DNA of 23,597 nucleotides from a virus, in IMG/VR virus record IMGVR_UViG_3300042294_002244, positions 1 to 23,597 of that record; one strand, 5' to 3'. Shown one piece after another: positions 2,516 through 19,300 of this stretch. The notes beneath the pieces were generated by a model that saw only the letters and a program-made list of their open reading frames with translations, ran no database searches and was not told the origin of the DNA. Each line of letters opens with the position of its first letter. The first letter of the stretch is position 1. The position numbers and the translations under genes were made by a program.

Positions 2516-3061
2516 ATGAAAGACGACGACCAAAGACCAAAAGCGCCGGAAGGTTACACAGTGATGCTCGGGAAAGACGTGCCAGACCCAGTGCCACAGG
2601 ACACGTTGGTCTGGGATGCGAAAAACGATCTCGAAGGGTGCCCCCACGAGTGGCGACCCAGTCTGCTGATTGGGGCACACCTACATGCAGAGCAGTTCAA
2701 CTCTTGGTACGCCGTGCCGAACGTCGAAACCGACGACGAAACCCTGCACCTGCGCGGGCCTTACCGTGTAGTATCCCCCGACACAGACCCCAAAGCCCCT
2801 CAATCCCTCGCCGAAGAGGCCGCAGCCATTGTGGCTGGAGACCGTGCAGCCGACTACGGCGACGTGAACGACTCTTTCGCTCGCATCGCGAAACTGTGGA
2901 GCGCCTACACAGGGTCGCACATCTCCCCGTGGGACGTGGCGCAGATGATGATTCTGTTGAAAGTCAGCCGAGCCAAGACGAGTACGAAGCGAGACACCCT
3001 GGTTGACATCATCGGGTATGCCGAATGCGCAGGCCAACTGAAGAAACCACGAACAGACTGA
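2516..3061 (+). CDS. DUF6378 domain protein with N-terminal extension
   Basis: A 181-residue protein. The C-terminal ~85 residues carry the DUF6378 pattern: a Glu-rich first helix (LAEEAAAIVAGDR), ADYGD, then ISPWDVAQMMILLKVSR and DTLVDIIGYAE. This all-helical layout with paired acidic residues resembles MazG/dUTPase-like nucleotide pyrophosphohydrolases, so nucleotide-pool control is plausible but unproven for the family. The N-terminal ~95 residues (with VWDAKND and RGPYRVV segments) look beta-rich and I do not recognise them. The ATG at 2516 follows a 21-nt AT-rich gap and has no Shine-Dalgarno; the bases just before it are CACC. The stop shares a base with the terminase start (TGATG at 3059-3063). 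Confidence 0.8.
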   Translation: MKDDDQRPKAPEGYTVMLGKDVPDPVPQDTLVWDAKNDLEGCPHEWRPSLLIGAHLHAEQFNSWYAVPNVETDDETLHLRGPYRVVSPDTDPKAPQSLAEEAAAIVAGDRAADYGDVNDSFARIAKLWSAYTGSHISPWDVAQMMILLKVSRAKTSTKRDTLVDIIGYAECAGQLKKPRTD

Positions 3062-5025
3062 TGCCCCAACCCTCTCCCCAGCAGATGGAACGCACCCACA
3101 TCGCTCGCTATGGGCGGTGGTGGAAACGTCTCCCCGGCGTGCCCAAGACGAGCGCCGGGTATGAGCTGTTGCAGGAGGTGGATCTCGAAAAGTTTATCTT
3201 GGGCAACTACGAGCATTTCGTTAATCTGCCGGGCAGCCAGCTCAACCCGTGGACGTGGCACTTCCGCAGGTTCATCTCGTTGATGCTGGATCGTCCCGAG
3301 ACCAACCCCCGCTACCGCTTCGAGTGGAACCCGTACGCCATGCGGATGTTGGAAGAAGCCTACTCCAACAACTTCCTCGCCGTCGCGGGGCACGCCAGTT
3401 GCTCCAAGTCTGAATTTTTCGCCCTCTACGCCATTGGGCGCTTCCTCATCGGCGCACGTTTTCCCGACTGCCCTGTGGCATCTCCTGAGTATGTGAAGGT
3501 GTTCATTACCTCGACATCGTTGGACGAGTCTCGCGGTCGTATCTGGGGCGTCGTCGAGGGCTACTGGGCGGAGATTTGCCGGTTCTTCGGCGGCGAGCAG
3601 TACATGCAGGCCAAGCTGGTGTCCTCCCTCGGCAAGATCGTGCGCGTCAATTCTGATGGCAAGCAGAACCAGCTCGCAGGCATCACTCTCGTTGCTGGCG
3701 GCAAGGGACAGGACAAGGACGCCTCGACCAAGATCGGTTTCAAGAACCGTTGTGTGATCTTCATCGCGGACGAACTGCCGTTGCTCACCCACAGTCTTTA
3801 CAACACCGCCATCACCAACTTGCAGTCCAATGAGTACTTGCAGTTCATCGGCATTGGCAACCCCACTTCGCCGTTTGACCCGCTCGGCGTGTTCATGGAG
3901 CCGGAGGAAGGGTGGAACTCCATCGACGAAACCTTCGACGGGTGGAAGACCAAACGTGGCTACTGCATTCGATTTGACGGGGAGAAGTCTCCCAACGTGC
4001 TCGCCGGTCGGGAGGTGTGGAAGGGCATTCTCAGCCTGCGCACCGTCACGGATCTGCGTCGAGACCTTGGCCCGAAGTCGCCGGAGTACTACCGCATGGT
4101 GCGCGGCTTCCTCTCCCCCGATGGAGACGCCAATGCCATCTACACGGAAGTCGAGATCACCAGCAGCGGCAGCCAGCACAGAGTCAGCACATGGCTCACC
4201 CCGCCCACCCCAATTGCTTTCCTCGACCCGGCCTTCAGCCATGGTGGAGACGAAGCGGACGCCTGTTTTTGTCGGGTGGGCGACTACTACTCAGCCATCC
4301 ACCAGCGCACCGTCAAAGGTATTGAACTGGTTGAGACGATCAACCTCATGGCCTTGGTCGATGCCAGTAACAAGACGGTGGACCGCAATCAGCAGTTGGT
4401 GAATCTCTACGATGCCGAGTGCGCCAAGCGCGGCGTCAAAGTGGAAGACCGAGGCTCCGACTCCACAGGGGCCGGTGATCCGTTCGCCTCGCTCATGGCG
4501 ATCAAGATGGGCCGGGGCTTCCAGATGGTGAGCTTCGCGGGAGCGCCGTCAGACAAGACCGTGGGCACCACCAACTCGCGCACCGGCAAGGACAGGTTCG
4601 CCAACCGGGTGTCCGAGCTGTGGTACGTCGGCAAAGACTTCATCAAGGCCGGACAGATTCGTGGCCTCGACCCAGAGACGTGCATCCAGATGTGTGCGAG
4701 AATGTACAAGCTCGTGGACCGGGAGAAAGTTGAGGTGGAGTCCAAGAAGGTGATGAAGCAGCGGACCAACGGCAGAAGCCCCGACCGCGCCGACGCCTTC
4801 TTCGGCTGCATCGAGATCGCCCGTCGCCGTCATGGGCTGACTTCGCTGGTCAAGGCTGCCCGCCGAACCGCGTTGCCGTCGAACGCGCCCAAGAACCCCA
4901 TGTCCGTCCGTCACGCTCATCTGGTGGCAGCCGTGACCGACACGAAGGGACGGGGCAAATACTCGGACCTGATCACCGCCTCACTCAGCGCCAATCAGGG
5001 CTGGGCTGATCAAAGTTTCCATTGA
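3061..5025 (+). CDS. terL: Terminase large subunit (ATPase-nuclease)
   Basis: This 654-residue DNA-packaging motor has both expected domains. In the ATPase domain the P-loop is G110-H-A-S-C-S-K-S117 and Walker B is VIFIADEL with D237-E238; GIGNP follows as the coupling region. In the RNase H-like nuclease domain, D389 (FLDPAFS), D467 (SDSTGAGD) and D578 (SPDRADAF) are the likely metal-binding acids. The P-loop has Ser115 where most terminases have the Gly before Lys. I chose ATG 3061, which shares its A with the preceding TGA, over the in-frame ATG at 3025 inside the upstream gene. In the cell it would assemble on the portal and cut and pump DNA into the prohead. No small terminase subunit or portal gene is recognised in the window, and the next genes are accessory enzymes rather than the head genes often found here. 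Confidence 0.95.
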   Translation: MPQPSPQQMERTHIARYGRWWKRLPGVPKTSAGYELLQEVDLEKFILGNYEHFVNLPGSQLNPWTWHFRRFISLMLDRPETNPRYRFEWNPYAMRMLEEAYSNNFLAVAGHASCSKSEFFALYAIGRFLIGARFPDCPVASPEYVKVFITSTSLDESRGRIWGVVEGYWAEICRFFGGEQYMQAKLVSSLGKIVRVNSDGKQNQLAGITLVAGGKGQDKDASTKIGFKNRCVIFIADELPLLTHSLYNTAITNLQSNEYLQFIGIGNPTSPFDPLGVFMEPEEGWNSIDETFDGWKTKRGYCIRFDGEKSPNVLAGREVWKGILSLRTVTDLRRDLGPKSPEYYRMVRGFLSPDGDANAIYTEVEITSSGSQHRVSTWLTPPTPIAFLDPAFSHGGDEADACFCRVGDYYSAIHQRTVKGIELVETINLMALVDASNKTVDRNQQLVNLYDAECAKRGVKVEDRGSDSTGAGDPFASLMAIKMGRGFQMVSFAGAPSDKTVGTTNSRTGKDRFANRVSELWYVGKDFIKAGQIRGLDPETCIQMCARMYKLVDREKVEVESKKVMKQRTNGRSPDRADAFFGCIEIARRRHGLTSLVKAARRTALPSNAPKNPMSVRHAHLVAAVTDTKGRGKYSDLITASLSANQGWADQSFH

Positions 5026-5060: not shown

Positions 5061-5696
5061 ATGGAATCTGAATTTTACGACGCCGAGTACTACCTGACCG
5101 GCCCGACATCCGGCAAATCAAACTACGTCGATTACAGTTGGAAGCCCGATCTCACGCTCCCCATGGCGGACTGGCTCAAGCGCGTCCTGCACATTAAGGA
5201 CGGCGACACGGTTCTCGATTTTGGGTGCGCCCGAGGCTACCTCGTCAAGGCGTTACGCATGCGCGGGGTGAACGCTTTCGGATACGACAGCAGCGAGTGG
5301 GCCATCCAGAACTGCGACGAAGGGGTGAAGGGTTATGTGTCCAACGTGATGCCCGATGAACGGTTTGATCACATCATCCTGAAGGATGTGGCAGAGCACA
5401 TCCTGCTCGATCAACTTCGTCCTCTGCTCAAACAACTGCTCGCCTCCACCCGGAAGCACCTACTCGCCATCGTCCCGCTGACTCACCATCCCGACGGTCC
5501 CTACCTCCGCGACGAGGACAACTCCGACCCGTCACACTGCAACGCATGGCCGCTGGACATGTGGATGGATTTGTTCAGGGAGAGTGTCTCCTTAGACGAA
5601 GGGTGCATCACTGGTTCATGGCACTACCCCGGACTCAAACCTGCCTCCTCTGAGGTGCCGAAGTCCTGCGGGTTTATCCAATTTACGCGAGTATGA
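5061..5696 (+). CDS. Class I SAM-dependent methyltransferase A
   Basis: A 211-residue Rossmann-fold methyltransferase. Motif I is V51-L-D-F-G-C-A-R-G59, followed by GYDSSEWAI (acidic residue at the end of beta 2) and FDHIILKDVAEHI (motif IV/post-IV). This is the pattern of Methyltransf_11/23-like enzymes, which act on small molecules, sugars or lipids more often than on DNA. No DNA-methyltransferase (N/D)PP(Y/F) motif is present, so base methylation of the usual N6A/N4C type is unlikely. The frame extends to a TTG at 5022 overlapping the terminase stop (TTGA). I prefer ATG 5061 because the protein then begins FYDAEYY, close to where such domains start, but 5022 remains possible. Neither start has a Shine-Dalgarno. 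It overlaps the next gene by ATGA. Confidence 0.85.
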   Translation: MESEFYDAEYYLTGPTSGKSNYVDYSWKPDLTLPMADWLKRVLHIKDGDTVLDFGCARGYLVKALRMRGVNAFGYDSSEWAIQNCDEGVKGYVSNVMPDERFDHIILKDVAEHILLDQLRPLLKQLLASTRKHLLAIVPLTHHPDGPYLRDEDNSDPSHCNAWPLDMWMDLFRESVSLDEGCITGSWHYPGLKPASSEVPKSCGFIQFTRV

Positions 5697-6472
5697 GAAT
5701 CTCCGCAGTCTGTCATTTCCACAACGAGCGCCATGCTCTGCCCGGCTTTATCGAAACCGCCGAGCGAATGTTCGACGAGATCGTGCTCGTATCCTCTCCC
5801 ATGGACGGCACCCCGGCTGACCCTGAGACGATTGCCATTGCAGAGGCGTCCGGTCACAAGCTCATCCACGATACCCTGAGCCAGGGCTTCGGAGCATTAC
5901 GAACCCGCTGCATCGGGTATTCGTCCTGCGAATGGGTGATGATCTTGGACGCGGATGAACGGGTGTGGCCGCTTGCCCCCATCCTCGGCGTCACTGGCAC
6001 CGGCAAGTTCCCCGAGACACTCACCCCCGATCTGCACGTCTCCAACCAAACGGGTGCTGGCGGCAACGTCAACCAGCGTGAGAAGCTGCGGCATTTAATC
6101 GGGCATGCCGAGGCAGAGCAAGCTCTCGCCATCTGCGTGTCCCGCCGTCACTGGTTCGGTGCTCCCGGTGAGTGGGACCGCCCCTGCCAGAACTGGCACG
6201 CGGAGCACGACTGGCAACTCAGGCTATTGAAGAACACCCCCTTCCTGTGCTACGACCCGGAGGTGAAGATGCACGAGCGCCTGATATGGACGCCAACATG
6301 GGCCGAGCCAAAGTTTATCCGGGTGACTGACGGGTCGCTCTACATCGACCACTACTCGCACCACTATCGAGCCATGGAGCCTGAACAGAACACCGAGGAC
6401 ATCGCCACCTACGAGGCGTTGATGCCGGGATGCACCAAAGACATGTGGATTTCACACCAACCAAAAGCATGA
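5693..6472 (+). CDS. GT2-like (GT-A fold) glycosyltransferase
   Basis: This 259-residue protein begins with a typical GT-A nucleotide-sugar strand (AVCHFHNER), followed by FDEIVLVSSPMDGT, which corresponds to the D.SxDGT loop of family 2 glycosyltransferases with Ser where Asp is usual. It then has VMILDADERVW with the metal-binding D86-A-D88. The tail is His/Trp-rich (including IDHYSHHYRAM) and contains a WHAEHDWQLRLLKN segment, as in GT2-like enzymes annotated as SunS/WaaE-type. It would transfer a sugar from a nucleotide donor; the acceptor is unknown. No membrane segment is visible, so a cytoplasmic protein is likely. Start and stop both lie in ATGA overlaps with methyltransferase genes, so it is probably made together with them. 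Confidence 0.82.
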   Translation: MRISAVCHFHNERHALPGFIETAERMFDEIVLVSSPMDGTPADPETIAIAEASGHKLIHDTLSQGFGALRTRCIGYSSCEWVMILDADERVWPLAPILGVTGTGKFPETLTPDLHVSNQTGAGGNVNQREKLRHLIGHAEAEQALAICVSRRHWFGAPGEWDRPCQNWHAEHDWQLRLLKNTPFLCYDPEVKMHERLIWTPTWAEPKFIRVTDGSLYIDHYSHHYRAMEPEQNTEDIATYEALMPGCTKDMWISHQPKA

Positions 6473-7206
6473 GTTTTTACGAAGAAATCAACAAGGTTTA
6501 CGCCTCTTGGAATTACGACAGCCCGCGCCTGCTGCACGGATTCACCCGCTGTCTGAAGCCGCAGCATATCGTCGATTGTGGCACTTACCGGGCCTTGTCT
6601 GCCGCATGGATGGCGAAAGCCTGCCAAGAGAACAACCTAGGCCGCGTCCACTGCCTCGACAACTGGTCGTTATTGGAGCACGTACACATCCTTGAAGGTA
6701 AGACGCCGAAGCAACACGCCGAGGAGAACCTGACTCATCTCGGTGTCCGCGATTGGGTGGAGTTCCATGACGGTGACACCAAGAACTTGAGCATCTGGCC
6801 GGAGCGTGTGGATTTTATCTACATCGACGCTTGGCACAGCCACGAGGCCGCGCTGTTCGAGATGAAGACGGCGATCAACCGAGGCGCTTCCTTTATAGCC
6901 TTCGATGACGTGGAGAACTGCGTTGGTCCCCGCATGTTGGTGGACGGACTGACCGACAGGTTGGGAGGGCTTACAGATTGGCAGCAACTCGACCTCCACT
7001 CCGACAACGGGCTGACCCTCTTCGTCAAGAAACAGTCGCGCCGGTTGATCACGTTCTCCCAAGAACTGCCCTACCCCAACCCCGGCGTTGACCTGCGCCC
7101 GCTCACCCTGGAGCAGCAGAAGGCCCACTTTGACGAGGCCAGCGCCATCACCGGACTGGACTATTCCAGCATCCTCGACCAAACTGAACACGACTTGAAA
7201 GTATGA
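6469..7206 (+). CDS. Class I methyltransferase B (Methyltransf_24-like)
   Basis: A 245-residue protein starting at an ATG in the ATGA overlap; the longer frame from 6430 begins inside the previous gene and was not used. The fold markers are IVDCGTYRALSAAWMA (motif I, atypical in having CGTY rather than GxGxG), VHCLDNW (end of beta 2), VDFIYIDAWHSHEAALFEM and FIAFDDVENC. The 'IDA.HS.E...E....A...G..I..DDV' layout is that of the Methyltransf_24 family, often found among glycan-biosynthesis genes and in some cases metal-dependent. After the domain comes a ~55-residue extension starting near SRRLITFSQELPYPNPGVD that I cannot place. Substrate unknown. Two methyltransferases and a glycosyltransferase in immediate succession suggest a shared product. 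Confidence 0.8.
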   Translation: MSFYEEINKVYASWNYDSPRLLHGFTRCLKPQHIVDCGTYRALSAAWMAKACQENNLGRVHCLDNWSLLEHVHILEGKTPKQHAEENLTHLGVRDWVEFHDGDTKNLSIWPERVDFIYIDAWHSHEAALFEMKTAINRGASFIAFDDVENCVGPRMLVDGLTDRLGGLTDWQQLDLHSDNGLTLFVKKQSRRLITFSQELPYPNPGVDLRPLTLEQQKAHFDEASAITGLDYSSILDQTEHDLKV

Positions 7207-7784
7207 AAATTCTCAACCTCGGAGCCGGGTCAACAAGACCCATCGACAACATCTGGGTCAACCTCGACAACTGGGAGGGCGGTGGTCATGAGATCAACGA
7301 GCCGAACTTCGTCCGGCACGATCTGCGCCAGCCACTCCCTTTTCCCGACAACTCGTTTGACGGCTGTTTGTGCAGCCATGTTCTGGAGCACATGGACTGC
7401 CGTGAAGCGGTCAAGGTGATGAAGGAAGTGCTGCGAGTGCTCAACCCTGGTGGCGTGATACTGGTGAGCGTGCCAGACGCCACCTACTTCCGTTCTGTCC
7501 ACGACGAGGACCGCAACGAGAACTGGCCTCGTTTGTTCGAGGTGACAGATCCACCGAACCCTATCCCAACGTGGTTCGAGGCAGCTTTGTGGTTTGACCA
7601 GCACGCTCAAATCTTCACAGAGGATTCCATGTGGGCACATTTTGTCCGCGCAGGTTTCCCCTCACACCACGTCCATCTCCTTGTCAACTCAGACGAGAAC
7701 CACTCGCCCACGGTTGCCGAGATCGTGCCAAAACTTAACCGCCGTATCTTCTCGTTGGAGATGTGGGCACGGAAACCTCTATGA
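7203..7784 (+). CDS. Class I methyltransferase C (Methyltransf_11-like)
   Basis: A compact 193-residue methyltransferase starting directly with beta 1: MKILNLGAGSTRPIDN (motif I LGAGS), VNLDNW (acidic residue after beta 2), a PLPFPDNSFDGCLCSHVLEHM segment (motif IV plus the 'HVLEH' signature) and RVLNPGGVILVSVPD (motif VI). This is the arrangement of small-molecule or sugar methyltransferases frequently encoded in polysaccharide loci. It appears complete and no catalytic motif is missing. It overlaps both neighbours by ATGA, placing it between methyltransferase B and the radical SAM enzyme. Confidence 0.88.
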   Translation: MKILNLGAGSTRPIDNIWVNLDNWEGGGHEINEPNFVRHDLRQPLPFPDNSFDGCLCSHVLEHMDCREAVKVMKEVLRVLNPGGVILVSVPDATYFRSVHDEDRNENWPRLFEVTDPPNPIPTWFEAALWFDQHAQIFTEDSMWAHFVRAGFPSHHVHLLVNSDENHSPTVAEIVPKLNRRIFSLEMWARKPL

Positions 7785-9007
7785 ACACCCTCCCTTCCGC
7801 CATCGCCGACAAGCCCGAACTGGACACCATCCCCGGCGACTCAGAGACGTGTAATCACGAGACTCCTGAGTCCATGAAGGATTTGCTCAACGAGTTCACC
7901 AGCACCTCATCCAAAATCCCTTGGCACCGCGACATCATCGAGGGGCTGCATCAAGGCAAAGGAGTGCCCAAGGTGAGCGGGATTTTTGTGGGAGACGCCT
8001 GCCAGCACAAGTGTTCTTTCTGTTCTACTGCCAACCGAGGCAACGCCGCCCTGACATTGCATCAGGTGGAAACATATGTGGATCAGCTCATTCCATTGGG
8101 TTTGAAAGCCGTTATTCTGAGCGGGGGAGGGAACCCCATATTGTGGAAGGACCGCGAAAAGGGCTACGATTTCGACGACTTGGTGGACACGCTGCATGGC
8201 AAAGGTCTGCAAATCGGGCTGATCAGCAACGGCCTCAAGAACATGGTGCAGTATCCCGATGGCCGGACCTCTTGGAGAACCGTTCGGCCTGAAACCTTGG
8301 ATAAGTTGACATGGATTCGCATCTCTCTCAGCGCGTGGGACCATGGTGAGGAAGTGGAAGTGCCTGACATCAATCCAGAACTGACTGCTCTTGGCGGAAG
8401 CTGGGTGTATCACGACTCCTACAAAGATCCGCTCGACCGGCACGGAAAAGTCAGTCGTCCCGAAGACCTTCAAACTCCTTTGCTCGCAGGCGATGAAGCG
8501 GAGCGCGTGACCTATGGCAAGGACCGCCTCCCGTTCATAAAGCAGAAATTGAAGGAGTTGCTTTCCACCAAACCGTTCACCTACATCCGTGCGCTGCCGA
8601 ACTGCTACGAGATTCAGAAGATCCCGGAACGGTGCATCGAGTTGGAACAACTGGCGTTGGAAGTGGACCCTCGCATCATGGTGCAGTACAAGCCGCCAGC
8701 CCCCCACACCTGTTGTCTGCTTGGTTATTCACATCCCGTGTTATGGCCTTCCGGCGACGTGACACCCTGCGATAGCGTAACCCTTTTGGATCAAGCCAAC
8801 CGTTCACAGGGCGGCAGCGCCTACGTCATCGGACGCTGGGACACCATTCATGAACTCTACGAGCAGCCTGTGCGTTCGCTGATCGACCCGATGGTGCATT
8901 GCCAGAAATGCGTGTTCGGCACGCAGAACCGCGCCTTGGACGCTATCTGGAAAGGGGCTGACCCGCAGCCAGTGGGGCCGGAGCCACGGCATAAGAACTT
9001 CATTTGA
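7781..9007 (+). CDS. Radical SAM enzyme with C-terminal auxiliary-cluster cysteines
   Basis: A 408-residue radical SAM protein. The catalytic [4Fe-4S] site is C74-x3-C78-x2-C81, followed by the SAM-binding GGGNP at 115-119 (position of the usual GGE) and LISNGL in the next strand. A second cysteine group, C311/C312, C330 (in WPSGDVTPC) and C374-x2-C377, resembles a SPASM/Twitch-type auxiliary cluster region. Such enzymes use radical chemistry to modify peptides, sugars or nucleotides. It does not show the short length of the phage QueE-like proteins in deazaguanine pathways, and no queuosine partner genes are visible. About 70 residues precede the core and may bind the substrate. I chose ATG 7781 within the ATGA overlap rather than the upstream start at 7763. 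Confidence 0.9.
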   Translation: MNTLPSAIADKPELDTIPGDSETCNHETPESMKDLLNEFTSTSSKIPWHRDIIEGLHQGKGVPKVSGIFVGDACQHKCSFCSTANRGNAALTLHQVETYVDQLIPLGLKAVILSGGGNPILWKDREKGYDFDDLVDTLHGKGLQIGLISNGLKNMVQYPDGRTSWRTVRPETLDKLTWIRISLSAWDHGEEVEVPDINPELTALGGSWVYHDSYKDPLDRHGKVSRPEDLQTPLLAGDEAERVTYGKDRLPFIKQKLKELLSTKPFTYIRALPNCYEIQKIPERCIELEQLALEVDPRIMVQYKPPAPHTCCLLGYSHPVLWPSGDVTPCDSVTLLDQANRSQGGSAYVIGRWDTIHELYEQPVRSLIDPMVHCQKCVFGTQNRALDAIWKGADPQPVGPEPRHKNFI

Positions 9008-9051
9008 CCGTGGGGAGATTTTATGACGAAATAAGAAATATCCCCCAACAC

Positions 9052-10050
9052 ATGAAAATTTCTTCTACAGGTGACATTGGCGATGTGGTGTTTGCGCTGT
9101 GTCTGCTCAAACAGATCCCCGACGGCCCACACACCCTGTGCCTGCGTTCATCGTCTTCGACCAAGGCCAAAGGACCGGAAGGCGTGCAACGCATGTATGA
9201 TCTGCTGGCACCACTGGTGAAGCTGCAACCCTACATCGCGGACATCCAGATCATCCAGCCGGGCGACCCGGTGGACTGGAAGAGCGAGGGCTTCCGCGAA
9301 CGTCACTACACCAAAGGCGAGACGCTCATGCGGGCGCACCTCAACCACCTCATCAAGACGCACAGCATCGGGCAGAACTTCACCGCCGACGAGCCGTGGC
9401 TGTACGGCGTCGAACCGTCGCCGCGCTCCAAAGGGCGTGTGGTGATCAACCGCACCGGGCGCTATCGCAACGAGCGGTTCCCGTGGAAAGAGATCGTGGC
9501 TCATCTCCGCAACCGTCTGCTCTTCGTCGGACTGCATCACGAGTGGCGCGAGTTCATCGGCCACCACGGCTACGTCGAGTTCCAGCCCACCACAGACATG
9601 TTGGAGGTGGCGCGGCTGATCAAAGGGTCTGACCTGTTCATCGGCAACCAGTCCTGTGCCAACGCCATCGCCGAAGGGCTGAAACACAACCTCATTCAAG
9701 AGACTCATCTGGGCTTCCCCGACTGCATCTACGTCCGCCCCAACGCCTCCCATGTCGCTGACGGCGTGGTCACGCTGCCAGACGGCACCGTGCTGCGCGG
9801 AGTCCGCCCCAAGACGGAGAAGAAAATCCACACCACGCCACCGGGGAACTGGCGCTACAACGGTGGAGCTTCACCCTGCTTTGAACTTTTGGTGAGAGAA
9901 GTTGCGAAGAGGGAGAATCTCACTATTGATGATGCCGAGGACGCCGTGTACGACGCCAATGTCGAACGATGCCCCGCCTTCTTTGCGGATCACGGGGGGC
10001 AGGCCCAGTTTCTCCGCGTACAACAAGCTCTTGAAAATTACAGCCTATGA
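9052..10050 (+). CDS. GT9-like (GT-B fold) glycosyltransferase
   Basis: A 332-residue protein resembling family 9 glycosyltransferases (ADP-heptose:LPS heptosyltransferase type). The N-terminus MKISSTGDIGDVVFAL matches the 'GDvvl' loop that opens the first Rossmann domain. In the second half RLLFVGLHHEW is followed by TTDMLEVARLIKGSDLFIGNQS (D194 to S201), corresponding to the 'l...l..adl.ig.dSg..H' donor site, then ANAIAEG. A His usual in heptosyltransferases is replaced by Asn here. I chose ATG 9052 because the GT9 fold begins right there; the frame extends to a TTG at 9004 overlapping the previous stop. About 70 C-terminal residues after the GT domain are unassigned. The start has no Shine-Dalgarno and follows CAACAC. 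Confidence 0.7.
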   Translation: MKISSTGDIGDVVFALCLLKQIPDGPHTLCLRSSSSTKAKGPEGVQRMYDLLAPLVKLQPYIADIQIIQPGDPVDWKSEGFRERHYTKGETLMRAHLNHLIKTHSIGQNFTADEPWLYGVEPSPRSKGRVVINRTGRYRNERFPWKEIVAHLRNRLLFVGLHHEWREFIGHHGYVEFQPTTDMLEVARLIKGSDLFIGNQSCANAIAEGLKHNLIQETHLGFPDCIYVRPNASHVADGVVTLPDGTVLRGVRPKTEKKIHTTPPGNWRYNGGASPCFELLVREVAKRENLTIDDAEDAVYDANVERCPAFFADHGGQAQFLRVQQALENYSL

Positions 10051-10412
10051 ACCGTCGCTCCATCTTCAAACTCCTTGCCGGGGCAGCGTGTGCCGCAGCC
10101 ATGGAGATCACCGGCTTGGTGCCTGCTCTGCCGAAAGCGGCAAAGTATGTGGTCAACCCTGAGTATCTGACAGCGGCTTATGAGGACGTGGTGATCTTTA
10201 GCAGTGCTCTCTCTGTTGAGATGCGCCAAACGGTGGAAGAGAAAGGGTCGGCGAGATTGTTGCTGAGATTTCGGAGGAAGGGGCAAGACGAGCCTTTATC
10301 TATTGGCATGTCCAAGTCGCGCCCCGGAGTGTTGGCCGACGCGAACCCGAACCGATACAACTTCGCCAACGGAGAATATCTACGAATCCCCCAACACGTT
10401 CTCGCACCATGA
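10047..10412 (+). CDS. Small protein with Tat-like N-terminal leader
   Basis: This 121-residue protein starts at an ATGA overlap. The N-terminus reads MNRRSIFKLLAGAACAAAM: twin arginines (R3, R4) in an RRxIFK context followed by a hydrophobic, Ala-rich stretch, the form of a twin-arginine (Tat) signal peptide. Candidate cleavage lies somewhere around residues 25-32 (PALPKAAK). The mature part contains VVNPEYLTAAYED, then a predicted beta segment ARLLLRFRRK. I do not recognise the family. Short Tat-leader-like proteins do occur in phage genomes, but whether they are exported, virion components or misread hydrophobic starts is unclear. Its position between two glycosyltransferase-like genes suggests it could be a target or partner of the cassette; this is inference. 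Confidence 0.65.
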   Translation: MNRRSIFKLLAGAACAAAMEITGLVPALPKAAKYVVNPEYLTAAYEDVVIFSSALSVEMRQTVEEKGSARLLLRFRRKGQDEPLSIGMSKSRPGVLADANPNRYNFANGEYLRIPQHVLAP

Positions 10413-10900
10413 GTACTTCCAAAGAGCCTATGAAATTCACCCGATCCGGTCTATCAGACTGGAAATGGGTGCAGACTGGTGGTCCTGATCTGTCTGAGGA
10501 GACTGAGAAAGATCGCGAGGAGTATGCCCTCGTGGCGGAAAAAGTGTTTGCGGATTCTGTCAGCGAAGACACTCCTCTCAACCGCTTCTTGCACAACCTG
10601 TGCATAAAAAACAGGACTCTGCGTTTGCCTCAGAGCGTGGGTAGGCGTGAAGCCGTTGAGGTCGGGAGGACATATCTGGATCTTACCTATCTGTGCAAAG
10701 ACGAGAACCCGAAAAAAACTACTCTCGACGCTTTTGCTCAAGCCCTATCCACTCCCGAAAACTTGATGCCGGAAGACATCCTGGAAGTAAGGTGGGTCAA
10801 CCGAATAGACAAACAAGACAACCCTTTTTGCTCTTTGGGTTATTTCTTAACTACTTTGTACCCAGCCAAACTCTTTAACGCCTCAACGCCTGAACCATGA
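10409..10900 (+). CDS. Hypothetical protein (orphan, lower GC)
   Basis: A 163-residue protein that I do not recognise. It is hydrophilic and mostly helical in appearance (EETEKDREEYALVAEKVFAD; RREAVEVGRTYLDLTYL), with no signal peptide, membrane span or metal motif. One interval (10681-10740) has 26 G/C of 60, clearly below the surrounding genes, which suggests a different origin. It starts at an ATG in an ATGA overlap, preceded by GCACC, and overlaps the next gene the same way (10897-10900). The unbroken frame and the coupling to both neighbours support it as a real gene. Confidence 0.7.
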   Translation: MSTSKEPMKFTRSGLSDWKWVQTGGPDLSEETEKDREEYALVAEKVFADSVSEDTPLNRFLHNLCIKNRTLRLPQSVGRREAVEVGRTYLDLTYLCKDENPKKTTLDAFAQALSTPENLMPEDILEVRWVNRIDKQDNPFCSLGYFLTTLYPAKLFNASTPEP

Positions 10901-12120
10901 AAATCGCCATCCCCGTATCCGCCCACGACAAGCACCTGCTGCCCGACCTCACCGAATGCCTGCTCAAGCTCGGCGGGTTGGAAGAGCATCCCGTCATCTT
11001 CTTCCCCACATCTGCCGCCAAGGACACCGCCTATGAGCATGCCGAGCGTCTGGGCGCGGAAACCTACCCGCTGACTCAGGACTTCGAGGGTGGAGCGCCT
11101 GTCGCCTGCAACCGACACTTCGCCAGCGTGGTCTTCGCACTCGCCAAGATGGGCAATACCGATCCCTTCTTGTGGATGGAGTTAGACATGCTGCCGGTGA
11201 AGCCGCGCTGGGCGGTCGCCCTGTTCGAGGACTACCGCTACGGCGGCACCCCGTTCCGTGGCGTCCTCGTCAACACGCCGTTCAACGTGAACGGACAGAT
11301 CGCCTACAAGGACGGCGATCAGATGATGATGGGCACCGGCATCTACCCCGCCAACATGGAGAAGGACGAACGGATCAAGCCGCTGCTGCTCGATCTCGCC
11401 AAACCTTACACGATGAACCCGCGTGAACCGTTCGACGTGTACCTTCGCTGGCCTATCCGCAACATCGGCGTGTCGCACACCGAACTCATCAGCGACATGT
11501 GGTCCACGCAGAACTACCACATGGAAGGAACCAACCTCGTCTGTGAGTCCGTGGATCACGGCAGCCGTGTGGTGCGTCCTCGCGGTGGTGTCGTCAGCCC
11601 CAAGGCCGTGCTGGTGCATGGCTGCAAAGACGGGTCGCTGGCTGACATCGTGTTGGGACGTGGGGAAAAAGCGCGGACGTTGGGAAGCGGTTGGAGCGTG
11701 GAGACGACTACTGTTGAGGTGGATGTCGAGTCCTTTCGGCAGGCGGCAGAAAACGTGGTCGAGGCTGCCACGAACCCGGCCCAAGATGACGCCTTCTGGG
11801 GCGACGATGAGAAGCCTACCGAGGTCATCCCAGTGAAGGCTCCCGAGCCTCCGGCTCACACCGTCACGAAGGCACCCGTCGTCACTGTTACCGAGTTGCC
11901 CGAGGAGGTGAAGATCAAAACCCCCGAGGTCAAACCCGTCAAGAAAATCACCCGCGCCGACATCGAAGCCGCCCTCGGTGGCAAGAAGATGCGCGTCAAC
12001 GACTTGGCGGAGAAGCTGGAAGTTGATGTGGCCTACCTCATCGGCACGTTCTCGATCAACGGATATGCCGTAGCCAAAGCTGGCTGGGTGCAGAACACCA
12101 TCCCGATCACGGAGGCTTGA
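10897..12120 (+). CDS. Glycosyltransferase-like protein with winged-helix-like C-terminus
   Basis: A 407-residue, apparently three-part protein. Residues 1-270 look like a GT-A glycosyltransferase: MKIAIPVSAHDKHLL opens the fold, PFLWMELDMLP supplies an E95-L-D97 DxD-like metal site, and MMMGTGIYPA and VLVHGCKDG match acceptor-side and late His segments. Residues ~270-345 are an acidic, Pro/Val/Thr-rich linker that includes DDAFWGDDE. Residues ~348-407 (ITRADIEAAL, RVNDLAEKLEV, YLIGTFSINGYAVAKAGWV) look like a small winged-helix domain. A glycosyltransferase joined to a DNA-binding-type domain is unusual; the tail might instead be a protein-interaction module. The start is in an ATGA overlap and there is no Shine-Dalgarno. 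It is the last large gene of the cassette. Confidence 0.72.
   Translation: MKIAIPVSAHDKHLLPDLTECLLKLGGLEEHPVIFFPTSAAKDTAYEHAERLGAETYPLTQDFEGGAPVACNRHFASVVFALAKMGNTDPFLWMELDMLPVKPRWAVALFEDYRYGGTPFRGVLVNTPFNVNGQIAYKDGDQMMMGTGIYPANMEKDERIKPLLLDLAKPYTMNPREPFDVYLRWPIRNIGVSHTELISDMWSTQNYHMEGTNLVCESVDHGSRVVRPRGGVVSPKAVLVHGCKDGSLADIVLGRGEKARTLGSGWSVETTTVEVDVESFRQAAENVVEAATNPAQDDAFWGDDEKPTEVIPVKAPEPPAHTVTKAPVVTVTELPEEVKIKTPEVKPVKKITRADIEAALGGKKMRVNDLAEKLEVDVAYLIGTFSINGYAVAKAGWVQNTIPITEA
12111..12115 (+). promoter_or_regulatory. Ribosome binding site for small ORF at 12125
   Basis: GGAGG lies inside the last codons of the glycosyltransferase-like gene, 9 nt before ATG 12125. This consensus site is a main reason to accept the 49-residue ORF downstream. 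Confidence 0.6.
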
Positions 12121-12324: not shown

Positions 12325-12786
12325 ATGGACCTCGCCGCCCTCCAACTGCTCACCCTGCGTCTGTTTGCCCAACGCGCCCATCACGACACGCAAGGGCCGA
12401 CGTTCTTCGCCGACCACAAGACGTTCGGGAAGTTTTACGAAGCCTACGACGCGGCCTACGATTCGGTGGTTGAACGGGCTGTTGGTCTCGGCAGCAAGAT
12501 GGACCTCGCCAAGCTGGGGATGGACGCTGCCACGAAAGCCGCGTTCCACCCGAACGAGCACTCCCCGGAAAAGCTGTTTGCTGATCTCCTGTCAGGTGAG
12601 AAGAACCTGTGCGCCGTCCTCGTGTCGGAGATGCCGAAAGCCACCGAAGGCACCAAGAACCTGCTGGCCCAGCTATGTGACGACTCGGAGCAACGGCAGT
12701 TCTTGATCCAGAAGAGGATCACTCCCGCATCCAGCAATTCTCCCAGTAGTCCGGCTGCTTCCCCAGCTTCACGTCCACAGATTTGA
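12325..12786 (+). CDS. Dps/ferritin-like protein
   Basis: This 153-residue helical protein aligns by eye with the Dps family. H19 and H31 have the same 12-residue spacing as the E. coli Dps pair H51/H63 with the intervening GP.F. D46, E50 and R51 fall where Dps has D78, E82 and R83. The residue matching D67 is Gly35, so the iron site may be altered. TEGTKNLLAQL later matches the start of the last Dps helix. Dps proteins bind iron at subunit interfaces and can shield DNA. From about residue 132 the sequence becomes a Ser/Pro-rich tail, and this part is antisense to the convergent gene at 12719-13306. It appears to have its own promoter. A non-iron-binding structural derivative is the alternative. 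Confidence 0.68.
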   Translation: MDLAALQLLTLRLFAQRAHHDTQGPTFFADHKTFGKFYEAYDAAYDSVVERAVGLGSKMDLAKLGMDAATKAAFHPNEHSPEKLFADLLSGEKNLCAVLVSEMPKATEGTKNLLAQLCDDSEQRQFLIQKRITPASSNSPSSPAASPASRPQI

Positions 12787-13306: not shown

Positions 13307-16300
13307 GGGTTGTTGACTTTCGCTTGAACCTTGCGGGTCTCGATGTCGAGGATGCGCGTGGCCCGATCACGAATCAGTTTGTCGAGCGCCTTGGTGGACA
13401 TTCCTGTGATCCGCTCGCCGTTCTCCTGCAAGAACTTGCCATAGCTGAGAGCGACCGCTTTCTCGAAGTCGTAAGTAACTCCTTTGCCGAGGGTGTCCAT
13501 AGGCACCTTCTTGCCGTCCTTGATGATCTGACGTTTGGTGCTCGGTGTAGGAAAGTCGATACCCCTCGCGAGTAACTGCCCGTAGGCCACAGTCGCCTTG
13601 TCTGCTTCGTCAGTTGTGTAGAGACGGCTGTAAGGCTCGCGGTGGAGTCGGACATCTTGACCGATGCGGTTGAACTGCGGACGCCCATCGTTGACAAATC
13701 GACGTGCGACAGGCATCTCGCGGACGAGCTTTTCCCAGACGCCGTCTGCCCGGAAATTGCGTGGGTCTTGCCACTTGTCCAAATCTTTGACGGATGTGGG
13801 TACCAGACCCCCAAGGTAGTTCGTACCCATTTTAATGACTTTCTCCGGCATCCCTTGTGCCGCCCCGTACGAGGACGAGGTGCTGAAAAGTTCGGCAACC
13901 TGCTGCATGGCGGCAGCATCTTGGACTTGAAACAGCCCAGTGACAGCGCCTTGAAGAATGTGTCCCGCTACTCCGCGCTGATTCCAGTCTTCAGGCTTGT
14001 AGCGTTTCTCGTCGAGCATGCTTCCCACAGCGGCTAGAAGTCCGGCAGTCGGCCATTGTGCATAGCTGATGCGCTCAATCTTGCCGTCTTTCCTGCGCCA
14101 AAAGGAGTTCTTCGCCAATCCCGCGCTCAGGCGGGAAGACTGCTCACCGAGACTGAGATCGTTCCACGGACCTTCCATGTGCCACTTGCCGTCCTCGGAT
14201 TCGTCGTCGTCTCCAAACAGAGAATAGAGAGTGGCAAGCAGAATGCCCCCGACCACGTTCTTACCAATCAGCATATCCTGCTGCATCGGGCTGAGTTTGC
14301 TGCCGAGGATGTTGGTGCCTTTGTTCAGCAGCCACGAGCCGGGCATGTAGCGCATGAACTCGTTGCCGAGGTTGAAGCCGAAGCGCATGAACCTCGTGCC
14401 GGTGAGGGCGTGGACGCTGCCTGCCGTCACTGCGGCGAACGCTCGCGTGATCTTGGCAGCTTCCTCATCTTGTGCAACTTGGTCCAGACTGCGGACTGCG
14501 GAAGACAAGCCTGACTTAACCGCATGGTAGAGTCCGCCAAACAACCCCGTCGGATCGTTCTGGAATGCGGCGATGTCTCCTACTTCAGAAGCAGCCATCT
14601 GGTCTGCCTCGGTCAGCCCGGCGTTAAGAATTTCGCGAGTGCGCTTGGCGACCAGCATGCGTTCAAATTTGGTCGCGGGTTCCGCTCCTGCCGTGGCCTC
14701 GGCAATCGCCTGCTTGCGAGCGTCGGCGATCTCCTTCTGAGTCCAAGATGTCTTGCCTTCATAAAGCTCAGGATTCATCGCCCGAGCCACGGCCATCGCT
14801 CCCTGCGTGGTGGCGGTGTTGTTCACGTGGTCGGCGGCGACCATGCTACGACCGACCACCATCATCAGAGCGCCGGGAATCTTCTGGAGCAGGCTGCCGC
14901 TTTTCCACATCTTCTCGCCGATGGCAATGGGGTGCGCGGTCTTCTCGCCATTCAGAGCGTCGATAAGATCGGCCTCAAAACGCTTGGTGAATGAGGGGTC
15001 TCCGGTGCGCAGGAGATACAGGGCTTCATTGAGTCCGGTGAACAATCCTTTCCACCATTGAGCCTGGATGTCGAAAGCGGCAACCCCTCTGCCCTTCGAC
15101 AGTTGGACTCCTGCTTGAATGAGGTTGGTGCCGAGACCATTCACGACACCTCCCCAGGTGTCGAAGTGAGTGCGCAAACCGCTAAGAACACTGGCGATCC
15201 AGTAGGAGTTCATCACGTCTGCCCAGTTCGCACCAGTGGCGTGCTGGATGCCTTCAACCAATTGGCCGAGTTTCTGATTGCGCAGGACGCCTTGGGGACT
15301 GCCCCACGCTTCGGCTGCCAGCTTGCGCAAAGCATCGGCCTGAACGCCGGTCAGGAGCTTCAAGCCGAACCGTTTGGAGATCGCTTCGCGGAAAGTGCTG
15401 GAGTTGAACACTCCCAGGTTCATGAGTCGGAGAAGCTCGGGAGCAGCAGACGCCACGTTCGCAACAGCCTTGGTGGTCTTGGCTTTCAGGACGCCAGCTT
15501 TGAAGAGTTCGTCTTGGAACGCTTTGAGTCTTTCGCGCTGCCACAGTTTGTCGATGCTCTCCGCCAACTTTTTCGACTCATCCGGGGTGAGGTTCTTCAG
15601 TGCCTCATGTTTGGCGACACGGTCCTTGATGGCGGCAAGACGTTCCGCCTGTGTGCGCGGCAGGTCGTAGAGAATGTCAGACCAATCTGAGTCGGGGAGG
15701 ATTCTATTGCGGATGGAGTTAACCAGCTTCTCAAGAGCTTTGGAGTCCTCGCTGAGAAGACTCTGCTTGGCGGCTTCTAGCTTCGCCACTTTGTCGGCGT
15801 CTGTCTGCGCCTGCCACGAGTCGAGAGTCTCGTTGACCGCCTTGAGTGCAAGGGCGCGGGCTTGCGGCCAATCGTTTTGAGTCGCGGCGTCCGGGACTTG
15901 CATCTCCGCGTCGAACACTTTTATCACGGCGTCAGCGGCGCGTTGACGGTTGAGCAGCGCGTCTTTGATGCTGAGAGTGCGTTTGCCGGACTTGTCCAGA
16001 CCCGTTGCCAAGTCGGCGGTGTAACCTGCCTTCTCAAATGCACGGCCAATCGCTTCACGGGAAGACACGGGGTCAAACGCCACCGTTGGAGCGGCGGGCA
16101 TCAACGCATCGCGCTGCGCTTCGAGTTGAGGCGTCATTGCCTTGACCGCATCCATAGCGGCTTTCGTTTCCACCTTGGCAACCTTGATCTGGTCGGCGAG
16201 TTGAGCGCGTTCTGCGGCACTGGCTTCCTGCTGTTCGGCACTTCCAGCCTCCAAATAGGTGAGTTTGGCACGAAGATCGGCCAGACGCTTTTGGGCTGGA

Positions 16301-19300
16301 TGGAAAGTTTTGTCCAACTCCATATCAATCAGCATGTCGAGCACTTTTTGACGACCCTCTTTCCACGCTGATTCAAACGCCGGACCCTCAGACACCTGAT
16401 TGACGAATGCGCTGGTCAGCAGGTCTTGCAGCGTGCGCTCGGGCGCGGGCTTCTTCTCACCCTTCACACTGGCTGCGAGAGTGCTTTTAAGGCTGCTCAC
16501 CAAATTGGCAAGCGCGGTCTTCCGTTCGGGAGCGACCACGTTGCCACGGGCTTTGAGCATCAAGGCTTTGGCTACTTCGTCGATGATCTGGTCACGCTGT
16601 CCCATACCACGGAACATGCGGGCGAGCGCACCAACAGAGGTTTGCTTTGGACGCAGGCTGCCCATCAATCGACGGATGATGTTCTCCAATCGTTCGTCGG
16701 CTTCGGCAGTGGCCGTCTCGGCAGCACCGGCTACTCGCGGAGCCGCACCTTCCGATCCTCCCTCGAACTGATCCTCCAGAATCTTCTCTCCGTGATCTGC
16801 GAGCACCTCTTCCACTGCAAGAATAGGGGCGATGAGTTGAAGCACTGCACCGTTCTGCACTCCAATCTGACGCATGCCACGGGCGGCGTCTTGGTTCATC
16901 CGTACTCGATACTTCCCAAGCCGTTGATTGGTGGCGCGTGCGACCGTTTTCTCGTCCTCACTGGCGTTGGGGTCTATCGAAATCTCTGTGAAACCTTTGA
17001 GCAGACCACCCATGACGATGTTCTTCACGTTGAGGTCCATGTCGCTCGGCGCACGGTCTGCCATCAACAGGTCGGCAGCCCGGAGTGGGCCAACGGCGTT
17101 GATCCAGGCAAAGGCTTTCTTGGTAGCTTCCTCGTCCGAATGGACTTGATACATTTGGTCCTCCGGTTTTGGCGGAGCAAAGCGAGCGCGAGTGAAGGCA
17201 AACTCAGGACCGTCCGCAGGTTCTGCTTCGCCGCCGATGTCGATGATAGGTGGTTCGCCGTCGTCAGCCTTGCTGTAAAGCGTGCTGTTGCTCTTCGGAT
17301 TGAACCGCTGTGGGGGCGGGATCACGTTGCCTTGCTTGTCGCGGGTGACGGGGTCGGCGGCTGCCAACGGGTCTGGAGCCGGAGAAATTGTCTCCCATTC
17401 TTTCGCCTCTGAAATATTGTTGGTAATCGGCTGATCAATATATGAAGGGTCATCCACCACGACCCGATTGTTCATCACCAACTCGGTAAGCACTACGTTT
17501 TTCAAAAGAGGCTCTCCGTCTGATCCAACTTCTCCCGTATCTTCGCCGTACGCGATGTAGATAGAACGTCCCTCCATCCCGGCCACCATATCTGATGCGC
17601 CCGTCTCGGCTCCGACACTGGAGATGACATAAACCCCATCAGGTGAACGCCATGCCTTCAACACGCTGACTCCTTTTTCATAAAGCCCTGGTTCGTGGCC
17701 TTTGACAGATTTGCCCCCTTTGGGCAGATCGCCGAATCGCAGATAGAAGCCAGGAAGTGTTATTGTCGTGTCCTTTCTCCAGTCCCTGAAAAGCACTTCG
17801 GTAGAAGGCTGTGCGCCTCCAGACTCTTCTTCCAGCCTCTCGATAGCAGCTTTGATGGCAGCCTGCTTGCCCATTGCAATGACATCCCCCAACCCACCTT
17901 TATCCGCAAAATACCAGTACCCATTTTCAGGATCGCGGAAAACAGATACCTCCCTGCTTCCGAGTCTCACTTTGGTGTGGTTGGTAAACCCGGTGCGCTT
18001 GGTCTCTGTGGAGAAAGGCTGAACTGCCGCCTTCGCCGCCGCGTTCACCATCGCCTGCTGCTTGGCAACGTCGCCAGACTCCACGGCTGCCATGTACTCG
18101 GCGTCCATGTCGTCGGCCTTGCTCTTCAACGTCCCCTGCGGTGCTGGCATCATACGCACAGCCGTGCCCACGGGAGTTCCTGGCAGCGATAGGCTGGACT
18201 GTGCGGCTTCTTGCTGGCTGCCCGCGCCTTCGAGCAACAGCGTGCCATTGTCGTAGCCTTCCTGCACCTGCGCCAAGAACGCCTCGGGCGTGAGTCCGGG
18301 CTGGAGCAGCCGGGCCTGCGCATAGACGCTGGAGAGCGGAGCCATCTGCGTGCTGGTGCCGCGCACGGCCTCGCGGTAGGCGTTGGCAATGGTGTTGCGG
18401 ACGACGTAGCCGTATTGCACCTTGCGGGGCTTCCAAGCCGCATAGTGACCTACGGACTGCGGGTTGAGAGGTTTGGCAGCCGCAACCCCAAATTGACGCT
18501 GCACCTCGGCAACAGCCGCTTTGAAGACGGCATCAAAAGGCTTGGGCATGTCGTATGAGGACAGTTCATTCGCGTCCCCTTTTTCATCCTTCAGCATCTC
18601 TGCCAAATTACCAACCAACTGATCGACTTGTTGCTGGCGGAGAGAGAAACCGGACAACGCTTTCTTCAAAGCATCCACATCGGGAATGAAATCTGCTGCT
18701 TCGTAAGACACGGCTACAGGCATTTCGGTCGCCCCCAGTTCGCGCATGGCTGCAAGCCGGTGCTGGCCTTCGATCACCTCCCCGTTGGCAGAGACAATGA
18801 TCGGAGAGATGAAACCCTCCTCCGACAGTATTTTAGCTTTCAAAGCGTCCACCCTGCGCCTTTCTTCCGGCTGATTCAGCCGTAGCACCCCGGTGAGATC
18901 GGATATGTCCACCGTGCCCAGAACTGATCCAGCGTCTTTCCCGTTTGCAGCGTTCGTGTCCGTGAGGCTGTCAGAAAATTTACCGACAGTAACCGGACCA
19001 TTTTTGGTCTCTATCGTTTTCTTGGTCCTGCGAACATTGAGGCGGACTGGTTCGGGCTTCTTTGGCATGTCCAGCAACTTGCGCTCCCCGGTGGCCGGGC
19101 GTTTGGCCTGCGGGTTGAACATGCTGGCGAGTCCCTGCGGCTTGGTTCCCACGGTTTCACCCCTGGCCTTCTGCGCTGCCTCCGCGAGCATGTCGGTGGG
19201 GGAGCGGTATCCGCGAGACTCTTGTGGTCCGTTGCCGCCGAACATCACAATTGCATCTTCCTTAACGATGTTCTCGCTGGAATAGGGGGCGACGGCTTTG

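Follow-up and report, generated by a model that had tools for sequence, protein, structure and literature searches.

Several described systems come close to the locus reported here. In the chlorovirus PBCV-1, according to the parts of PMC9614988 dealing with A064R and A061L, virus glycosyltransferases and methyltransferases build an O-methylated capsid glycan, and mycobacteriophage Che8 is described (Freeman 2023, through the relevant parts of PMC12619734 and PMC11256854) as having its own glycosyltransferases and glycans on capsid and tail tube. TibC and the autotransporter heptosyltransferases provide, in the sections concerned of PMC4358343, a GT9 fold that acts on protein, and PMC7029224, where it treats pelagimyophage glycosyltransferases, proposes a change of the host O-chain and notes radical SAM cassettes. 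The present locus occupies positions 5061 to 12120, on the plus strand, of IMG/VR record IMGVR_UViG_3300042294_002244, a 23.6-kb virus record that was analysed over its whole length and is called the window hereafter. We propose, with about as much confidence as doubt, that it is a polymorphic, phage-encoded glycan-building locus, the product of which would be an O-methylated glycan edited by a radical SAM enzyme (rSAM), with a virion protein as putative acceptor.

Nine plus-strand open reading frames (ORFs) fill this stretch between the large terminase gene and a strand switch, as a sequence-only reading of the window had stated. They comprise genes for three class I methyltransferases, a GT2 glycosyltransferase, rSAM, a protein of predicted GT9 fold and a GT-A enzyme carrying a mini-domain at its C-terminus, along with two small ORFs. 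Five of the enzyme calls made in that reading were recovered by Pfam, and its GT9-like and third glycosyltransferases by predicted fold. The genes, with the terminase, are the following (L numbers denote loci of relatives; aa, amino acids).

3025–5025, plus strand: large terminase, which anchors the locus upstream; a 15-sequence profile matches 8dkr
5061–5696, plus strand: MT1, class I methyltransferase (PF13489, Methyltransf_23, E 2.1e-11); relatives in L021, L046 and L049; alternative TTG start possible at 5022
5693–6472, plus strand: GT2 glycosyltransferase (PF00535, E 9.3e-8)
6469–7206, plus strand: MT24, methyltransferase (PF13578, E 8e-14); the ORF opens at 6430, with an ATGA start at 6469
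7203–7784, plus strand: MT11, methyltransferase (PF08241, E 1.2e-12)
7781–9007, plus strand: rSAM (PF04055, E 2.7e-7)
9052–10050, plus strand: glycosyltransferase of predicted GT9 (GT-B) fold, core gene, called from its predicted structure; a TTG start at 9004 is possible too
10047–10412, plus strand: small ORF with a twin-arginine-like N-terminus (MNRRSIFK); relatives in L018, L039, L060, L140 and L165
10409–10900, plus strand: small ORF, from the ORF call and its ATGA junctions
10897–12120, plus strand: core GT-A enzyme, with a predicted GT-A domain (aa 1–255), a disordered linker and a C-terminal mini-domain (aa ~351–400, IF2_N-like)

Seven of the eight junctions within the block are in-frame ATGA overlaps, a proportion that had been noted before, and rSAM-GT9 is the exception; the terminase-MT1 junction is not ATGA. 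For comparison, a rough gene call gave ATGA at 53 of 143 junctions across 37 non-redundant loci, drawn from 98 loci with the order terminase, GT9, GT-A. All nine genes are intact at 99–100% in six near-identical contigs, and three more contigs end inside the block, which argues that its composition is not due to chance. The same near-identical contigs vary outside the block, with a helicase only 58% identical in some and a C5-methylase present in some. The relatives of the small ORF at 10047–10412 sit near terminase or GT9.

No match for the terminase, GT-A or GT9 was obtained by tblastn among 50,697 INPHARED phage records, which presumably include mycobacteriophages, nor for the 195-aa protein flanking the locus, an ORF of ~760 aa found downstream of GT-A in relatives, or two distant GT-A members; rSAM matched three records. 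No description of a terminase-GT9-GT-A locus was found in those portions of the open-licence PMC literature that the search covered. Like PBCV-1, as presented in the parts of PMC9614988 cited above, the phage locus combines virus-encoded glycosyltransferases with methyltransferases, and in PBCV-1, too, a GT-A domain is joined to a second glycosyltransferase. PBCV-1, however, is a eukaryotic virus with a proven capsid N-glycan and with two glycosyltransferases and a methyltransferase in one protein, whereas in the phage locus, with its putative acceptor, the methyltransferases are separate genes and a radical SAM enzyme is added. With the Che8-type mycobacteriophages the locus shares phage-encoded glycosyltransferases, but it differs in that GT-A and GT9 are unmatched in INPHARED and in that neither a terminase-GT9-GT-A locus nor an rSAM partner appears in the relevant parts of the two accounts (PMC12619734, PMC11256854). 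A closer parallel in composition is offered by the glycan islands of HTVC008M and SynMITS9220M01, in which an rSAM homologue adjoins methyltransferase and sugar genes, and by the pelagimyophage islands, described in the portion of PMC7029224 concerned as variable regions with glycosyltransferases and radical SAM cassettes. HTVC008M and SynMITS9220M01 differ from the window's lineage, that is, they are myophages of 147–190 kb, their rSAM matches are at 29% and 21%, respectively, there is no terminase in the regions seen, and the core pair is unmatched by tblastn.

Judged from gene neighbourhoods, GT9 and GT-A are the lasting core of the locus, and it is the genes between terminase and GT9 that appear to be swapped. 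Profile scans of IMG/VR gave 250 relatives of GT-A and 138 of GT9, the best 80 of each being kept. After exclusion of near-copies, short proteins and loci with less than 3 kb upstream, 53 of 58 non-redundant loci had GT9 upstream of GT-A at a distance of at most 2 kb, a count that is inflated, as GT9 had served to retrieve about half of the loci and many were fetched via one of the two genes. The five loci lacking an upstream GT9 are L056, L067, L074, L105 and L169 (in L169 the GT-A match lies inside a GT9 fusion). A terminase of the window's family is found at most 9 kb upstream in 42 of the 58 loci.

On the other side of the pair, 70 of 153 loci (29 of 61 when redundancy is removed) have a member of the ~760-aa ORF family that starts less than 1 kb downstream of GT-A in the same orientation, and these are all the loci in which the family was detected; the 153 loci include several from one contig and span 10 kb on each side, so that more distant head genes would escape. 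Twenty-one of the 70 loci (12 non-redundant) have the terminase upstream as well. In L079 and L053 the ~760-aa ORF is followed by ORFs of ~110, ~390 and ~400 aa, sizes that correspond to those of gp58, gp57 and the capsid protein, which follow the portal in N4; in L079 an endonuclease VII-like ORF is interspersed in this row. On size and order, the ~760-aa ORF is perhaps a portal protein and the ~400-aa ORF perhaps a capsid protein. The head-like row of L079 (11050–17943) has the gene sizes of the N4 portal-to-capsid segment without detectable sequence similarity. Membership of the Schitoviridae (N4-like phages) was considered but found no support in profile searches, the hhalign probability being below 2 for every pair tried and hmmsearch finding nothing; only the gene sizes are in agreement.

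The genes upstream of the core pair behave differently. Intact members of the MT1, GT2 and rSAM clusters number four per cluster and come from the same four of the 37 non-redundant loci, with an unchanged gene order; the terminases of these four loci are 47–100% identical to that of the window. Terminases 71–87% identical to the window's are found in L016–L019, L021, L022, L024 and L025, and five of the six non-redundant loci in this range are without the intact MT1-GT2-rSAM set, having other methyltransferase and glycosyltransferase genes instead. L021 and L022 retain MT1, GT2, MT11 and rSAM (L022 is cut in rSAM). L016 and L017 have a different methyltransferase-like ORF and a GT9 fused to a domain aligning with GT-A; L018 and L024 have a 438-aa ORF resembling the two N-terminal glycosyltransferase domains of L019, which itself encodes a 783-aa fusion of GT2, GNT-I-like and GT9 domains along with a truncated MT1 remnant; and L025 has a methyltransferase-like ORF and a fusion of GT-A-like and GT9 domains (domain names in the fusions of L016–L019, L024 and L025 were assigned partly by inspection). 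At a larger distance, L046 (terminase 47%) has MT1, GT2, MT24, MT11, rSAM and GT9 in the order of the window plus one extra ORF, and MT1, GT2, rSAM and GT9 are present in L049 (terminase 52%). Because close relatives are without the set while L046 and L049 have it, the comparison indicates that the set is either ancient or mobile and gets exchanged as a cassette. In line with this, on a terminase tree of 36 loci (L062, with a short terminase, left out) the distribution of the four carriers requires four changes, no fewer than three of which are forced by strong branches, and shows no clustering relative to shuffled labels.

The content of the variable interval was surveyed by scanning 129 of the 143 ORFs between terminase and GT-A in the 37 loci, the remaining 14 being under 75 aa. 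Gene chains had at times missed GT9 or a methyltransferase (e.g. in L017, L046 and L024) through overlapping spurious ORFs, and the reference loci L017 and L046 were substituted by hand before the scan. Many ORFs match nothing; where a family was recognised, methyltransferase and glycosyltransferase models were the commonest among the matches listed, which comprise Methyltransf_11 (18), Glycos_transf_2 (15), Methyltransf_24 (4), Radical_SAM (4), GNT-I (3), GT9 (2), Hexapep (1) and FkbM (1), as well as PDDEXK_5 nuclease models in six of the 129 ORFs.

rSAM scores 31.4 bits against PF04055 (cut-off 29.5). Its CxxxCxxC motif as well as C312, C330, C374 and C377 are invariant in all six aligned sequences, and the four additional cysteines likely bind an auxiliary cluster. 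All of 18 NCBIfam named radical SAM families scored far below cut-off (best 19.3 versus 131 bits). The profile matches in the PDB, to viperin-like proteins, SkfB, cytosylglucuronate decarboxylase and others, are limited to the core domain, and the reaction therefore cannot be named. Between L021 and L046 the terminase is 47% identical, MT1 50%, GT2 43%, MT11 48% and GT9 52%, but rSAM 79%, whereas the window's rSAM shares 37–38% identity with those of the other three carriers, the N-terminal peptide being the same. Among the four carriers divergence roughly tracks the terminase for every gene except rSAM. Since the rSAM identities are out of step with those of the terminase and the other block genes, the rSAM allele was apparently exchanged between lineages independently of the rest. 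In the viral contigs L190 and L191, rSAM adjoins MT1, with MT11 nearby, and L191 also has GT2-like (33%) and GT9-like (29%) genes on the opposite strand. A 4.2-kb Hyphomicrobiales contig carries Methyltransf_24, rSAM, a GT9-like ORF (20.6 bits, cut-off 22) and a PfkB kinase. Among bacterial relatives, 13 near full-length matches were taken from the 80 kept, and after L214 (8 of 102 ORFs) was dropped, 12 loci with 94 ORFs remained; the commonest Pfam families beside rSAM were glycosyltransferases, methyltransferases and sugar dehydratases (Glycos_transf_2, 8; Methyltransf_23, 7; GDP_Man_Dehyd, 5; Glycos_transf_1, 4). The sequence-only reading had taken the nine genes for one dedicated pathway, to be judged by its conservation as a block across related phages. 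The association of MT1, GT2 and rSAM in the same loci and their regrouping in L190 and L191 agree with genes that belong together, but conservation as a block did not hold, given the other genes in most close relatives, the scatter on the terminase tree and the separate movement of rSAM.

For the two core enzymes the assignments come from predicted structures, as neither the window's GT9 nor its GT-A fusion has a Pfam glycosyltransferase match by sequence. The GT9 model (AlphaFold, 38-sequence alignment, predicted local confidence (pLDDT) 90) aligned to WaaC in VIA with Z 15.5 (225 aligned, root mean square deviation 3.6), followed by 3tov (15.1), WaaF (14.3) and TibC (14.0), the fold range of WaaC, WaaF and TibC being 13.8–15.5; three plant NDH-PSI chains also scored 13.1–14.4, and epimerases came next at about 8.9. 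The protein is thus modelled with the GT-B fold of GT9. Because the PF01075 profile gave no match for the window protein and matched one of eight relatives at E 0.014, it is best placed in a divergent, GT9-like branch outside the Pfam family. It resembles TibC in this modelled fold and differs from it in that the phage GT9 profile recovered no GT9 structure from the PDB by sequence and in that donor and acceptor are putative here. In the GT-A fusion (AlphaFold, 40 sequences, pLDDT 85), residues 1–255 adopt a predicted GT-A fold, with CHSY3, LARGE1, LgtC and glycogenin at Z about 13–15.2; E95, D97 and H241–D245 are invariant in 40 of 40 sequences, and E95-x-D97 is a DxD-type motif predicted to bind metal. 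The small C-terminal domain, after a disordered linker, is modelled confidently. PDB sequence searches for relatives of the core glycosyltransferases gave nothing usable, and Foldseek TM-scores were modest for both models (0.2–0.5), so that the fold assignment rests mainly on the second aligner, VIA, and on the motifs.

Taken as a glycan-building locus, the block would work as follows. GT-A and GT9 would place the first sugars on the acceptor, most likely a virion protein; GT2 would extend the chain, the methyltransferases would cap hydroxyls and rSAM would edit a sugar. Swapped cassettes, or the rSAM allele alone, would then alter the glycan on display and leave the attachment machinery as it is. 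We consider a virion protein more likely as acceptor than DNA or the host surface, a moderate preference that has two reasons. The core is accompanied by the terminase or by putative head genes in phages that otherwise differ in their glycan genes, and there are precedents for methylated capsid glycans made by viruses and for glycans on phage virions, as far as the sources cited at the outset go. Of the three products envisaged by the sequence-only reading (a modified sugar, a decorated virion protein and a hypermodified base), the decorated virion protein is the best supported, if indirectly, and the hypermodified base fares worst. A more specific version can be offered tentatively, as something we think possible though doubtful: the locus may determine a virion 'serotype' throughout a lineage of uncultured phages, in which a fixed pair of GT-A (with the mini-domain for docking) and GT9, encoded between terminase and portal, adds glycan to a head protein at assembly, and exchangeable glycosyltransferase, methyltransferase and rSAM cassettes diversify the exposed glycan, like bacterial O-antigen loci.

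Several observations weigh against a virion glycan. In G001, a relative of 62.5 kb, the locus shares a strand with the replication genes, and the presumed head genes lie on the other strand at a considerable distance. The same holds for G001's member of the ~760-aa ORF family (26% identical to that of L079), so that the link to late genes is not direct in the window's lineage. Among the 70 loci with this ORF, 44 have no terminase of the window's family, and four have it downstream and one on the other strand. The portal and capsid labels found no match among PHROG, PDB or N4-like profiles. The GT-A mini-domain, which resembles IF2_N (E up to 1 in five of seven members, with the window protein under the cut-off), might be a nucleic-acid binder; MT24 matches phrog_2675 ('DNA methyltransferase', E 2.8e-6), and MT1 and MT11 match phrog_4752 ('tRNA methyltransferase') at about 5e-5. 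Finally, collagen-like candidate acceptors occur in only eight of 50 contigs. G001 (L173, about 14766–17931) encodes a collagen-like Gly-X-Y protein, then a hexapeptide-repeat protein and a 2OG-Fe(II) oxygenase, and all three contigs with the oxygenase (G001, G002 and G048) carry collagen as well; with the oxygenase in three of 44 contigs, a collagen-like protein was rejected as general acceptor.

Rather unlikely, in our view, is that the locus remodels a host surface glycan (core or O-chain of the lipopolysaccharide), blocking superinfection or altering receptors. The nearest folds to the GT9 model are lipopolysaccharide heptosyltransferases, the rSAM homologues of HTVC008M and SynMITS9220M01 lie in a sugar and a heptose region, respectively, and this is the role proposed for pelagimyophage glycosyltransferases in the part of PMC7029224 mentioned above. 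The scanned ORFs of the window include no flippase or polysaccharide polymerase, most tail-end ORFs not having been membrane-tested, and the core pair, unlike a free accessory gene, keeps company in diverse phages, often beside the terminase or a presumed head gene.

That the glycosyltransferases and methyltransferases hypermodify phage DNA bases appears improbable, although the strand of the locus in G001, the mini-domain and the PHROG match of MT24 would fit, and 10 of 44 contigs have a C5-methylase that exceeds the cut-off (11 at E 0.001). Work by Pyle from 2024, cited in PMC12619734, is said to describe viral glycosyltransferases that hypermodify DNA. The earlier claim that none of the methyltransferases has an N6A/N4C signature stood for MT11 (15.3 bits against PF01555, cut-off 26.7) and is less secure for MT24 in view of its PHROG match; MT1 reached 22 bits against a DNA-phosphorothioation-associated methyltransferase model (cut-off 150). 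Against DNA as acceptor, the thymidylate synthase/hydroxymethylase family was found in none of the 44 contigs (9 of 14 controls), a soft absence since the contigs are probably fragments; TET/JBP dioxygenases were also found in none of the 44, the controls likewise giving no match. Furthermore, contigs with the same cassette differ in the C5-methylase, which is present in G004, G007, G009 (cassette cut in rSAM) and G010 and absent from G003 and G005. Judging by these gene contents, DNA hypermodification is weakened. Least probable is a cargo island of unrelated accessory genes gathered at a recombination-prone site. Contents do vary strongly between loci, carriers of the module are dispersed over the terminase tree, no match was obtained for many of the ORFs in between, and PDDEXK_5 nucleases recur; for the recognised replacement genes, however, methyltransferase and glycosyltransferase models are the commonest among the matches listed, and genes of the module come together again in two further viral contigs, L190 and L191.

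The plus strand of the window carries, in order, ORF148, a DUF7768 protein, an SNF2 helicase, a DUF6378 protein, the large terminase and the nine block genes, and the minus strand a 195-aa protein and a polyvalent protein of 3426 aa; ARAGORN found no tRNA genes in the window. The terminase matched no Pfam or PHROG model, and its profile hit the solved large terminase 8dkr at E 7e-4, phage gene 2 proteins being matched weakly. Downstream of the core are the following.

12325–12786, plus strand: ORF between the core and the strand switch, kept in L017 and L025
12719–13306, minus strand: conserved 195-aa ORF, 69–75% identity in L017, L018, L019, L024 and L025
13303–23583, minus strand: giant 3426-aa polyvalent protein, downstream anchor (PF18838, LPD23, E 3.4e-12)

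The giant protein is mosaic among near-identical contigs, its C-terminal part being 99–100% identical and middle parts absent or 48–97% identical. The SNF2 helicase (1052–2494; L001:2488–3930) shows the 58% identity mentioned above in contigs with a 100% identical terminase, and in the contig of L001 the C5-methylase sits between helicase and DUF6378. The DUF7768 protein (603–1064), upstream of the helicase, is retained in several relatives.

Virion glycans are so far known from few phage cases. If the proposed glycan-building role is true, variation of the particle glycan would be a lasting feature of a broad group of phages, and the locus offers enzymes that can be tested, including a radical SAM family found among both phage and bacterial glycan genes.

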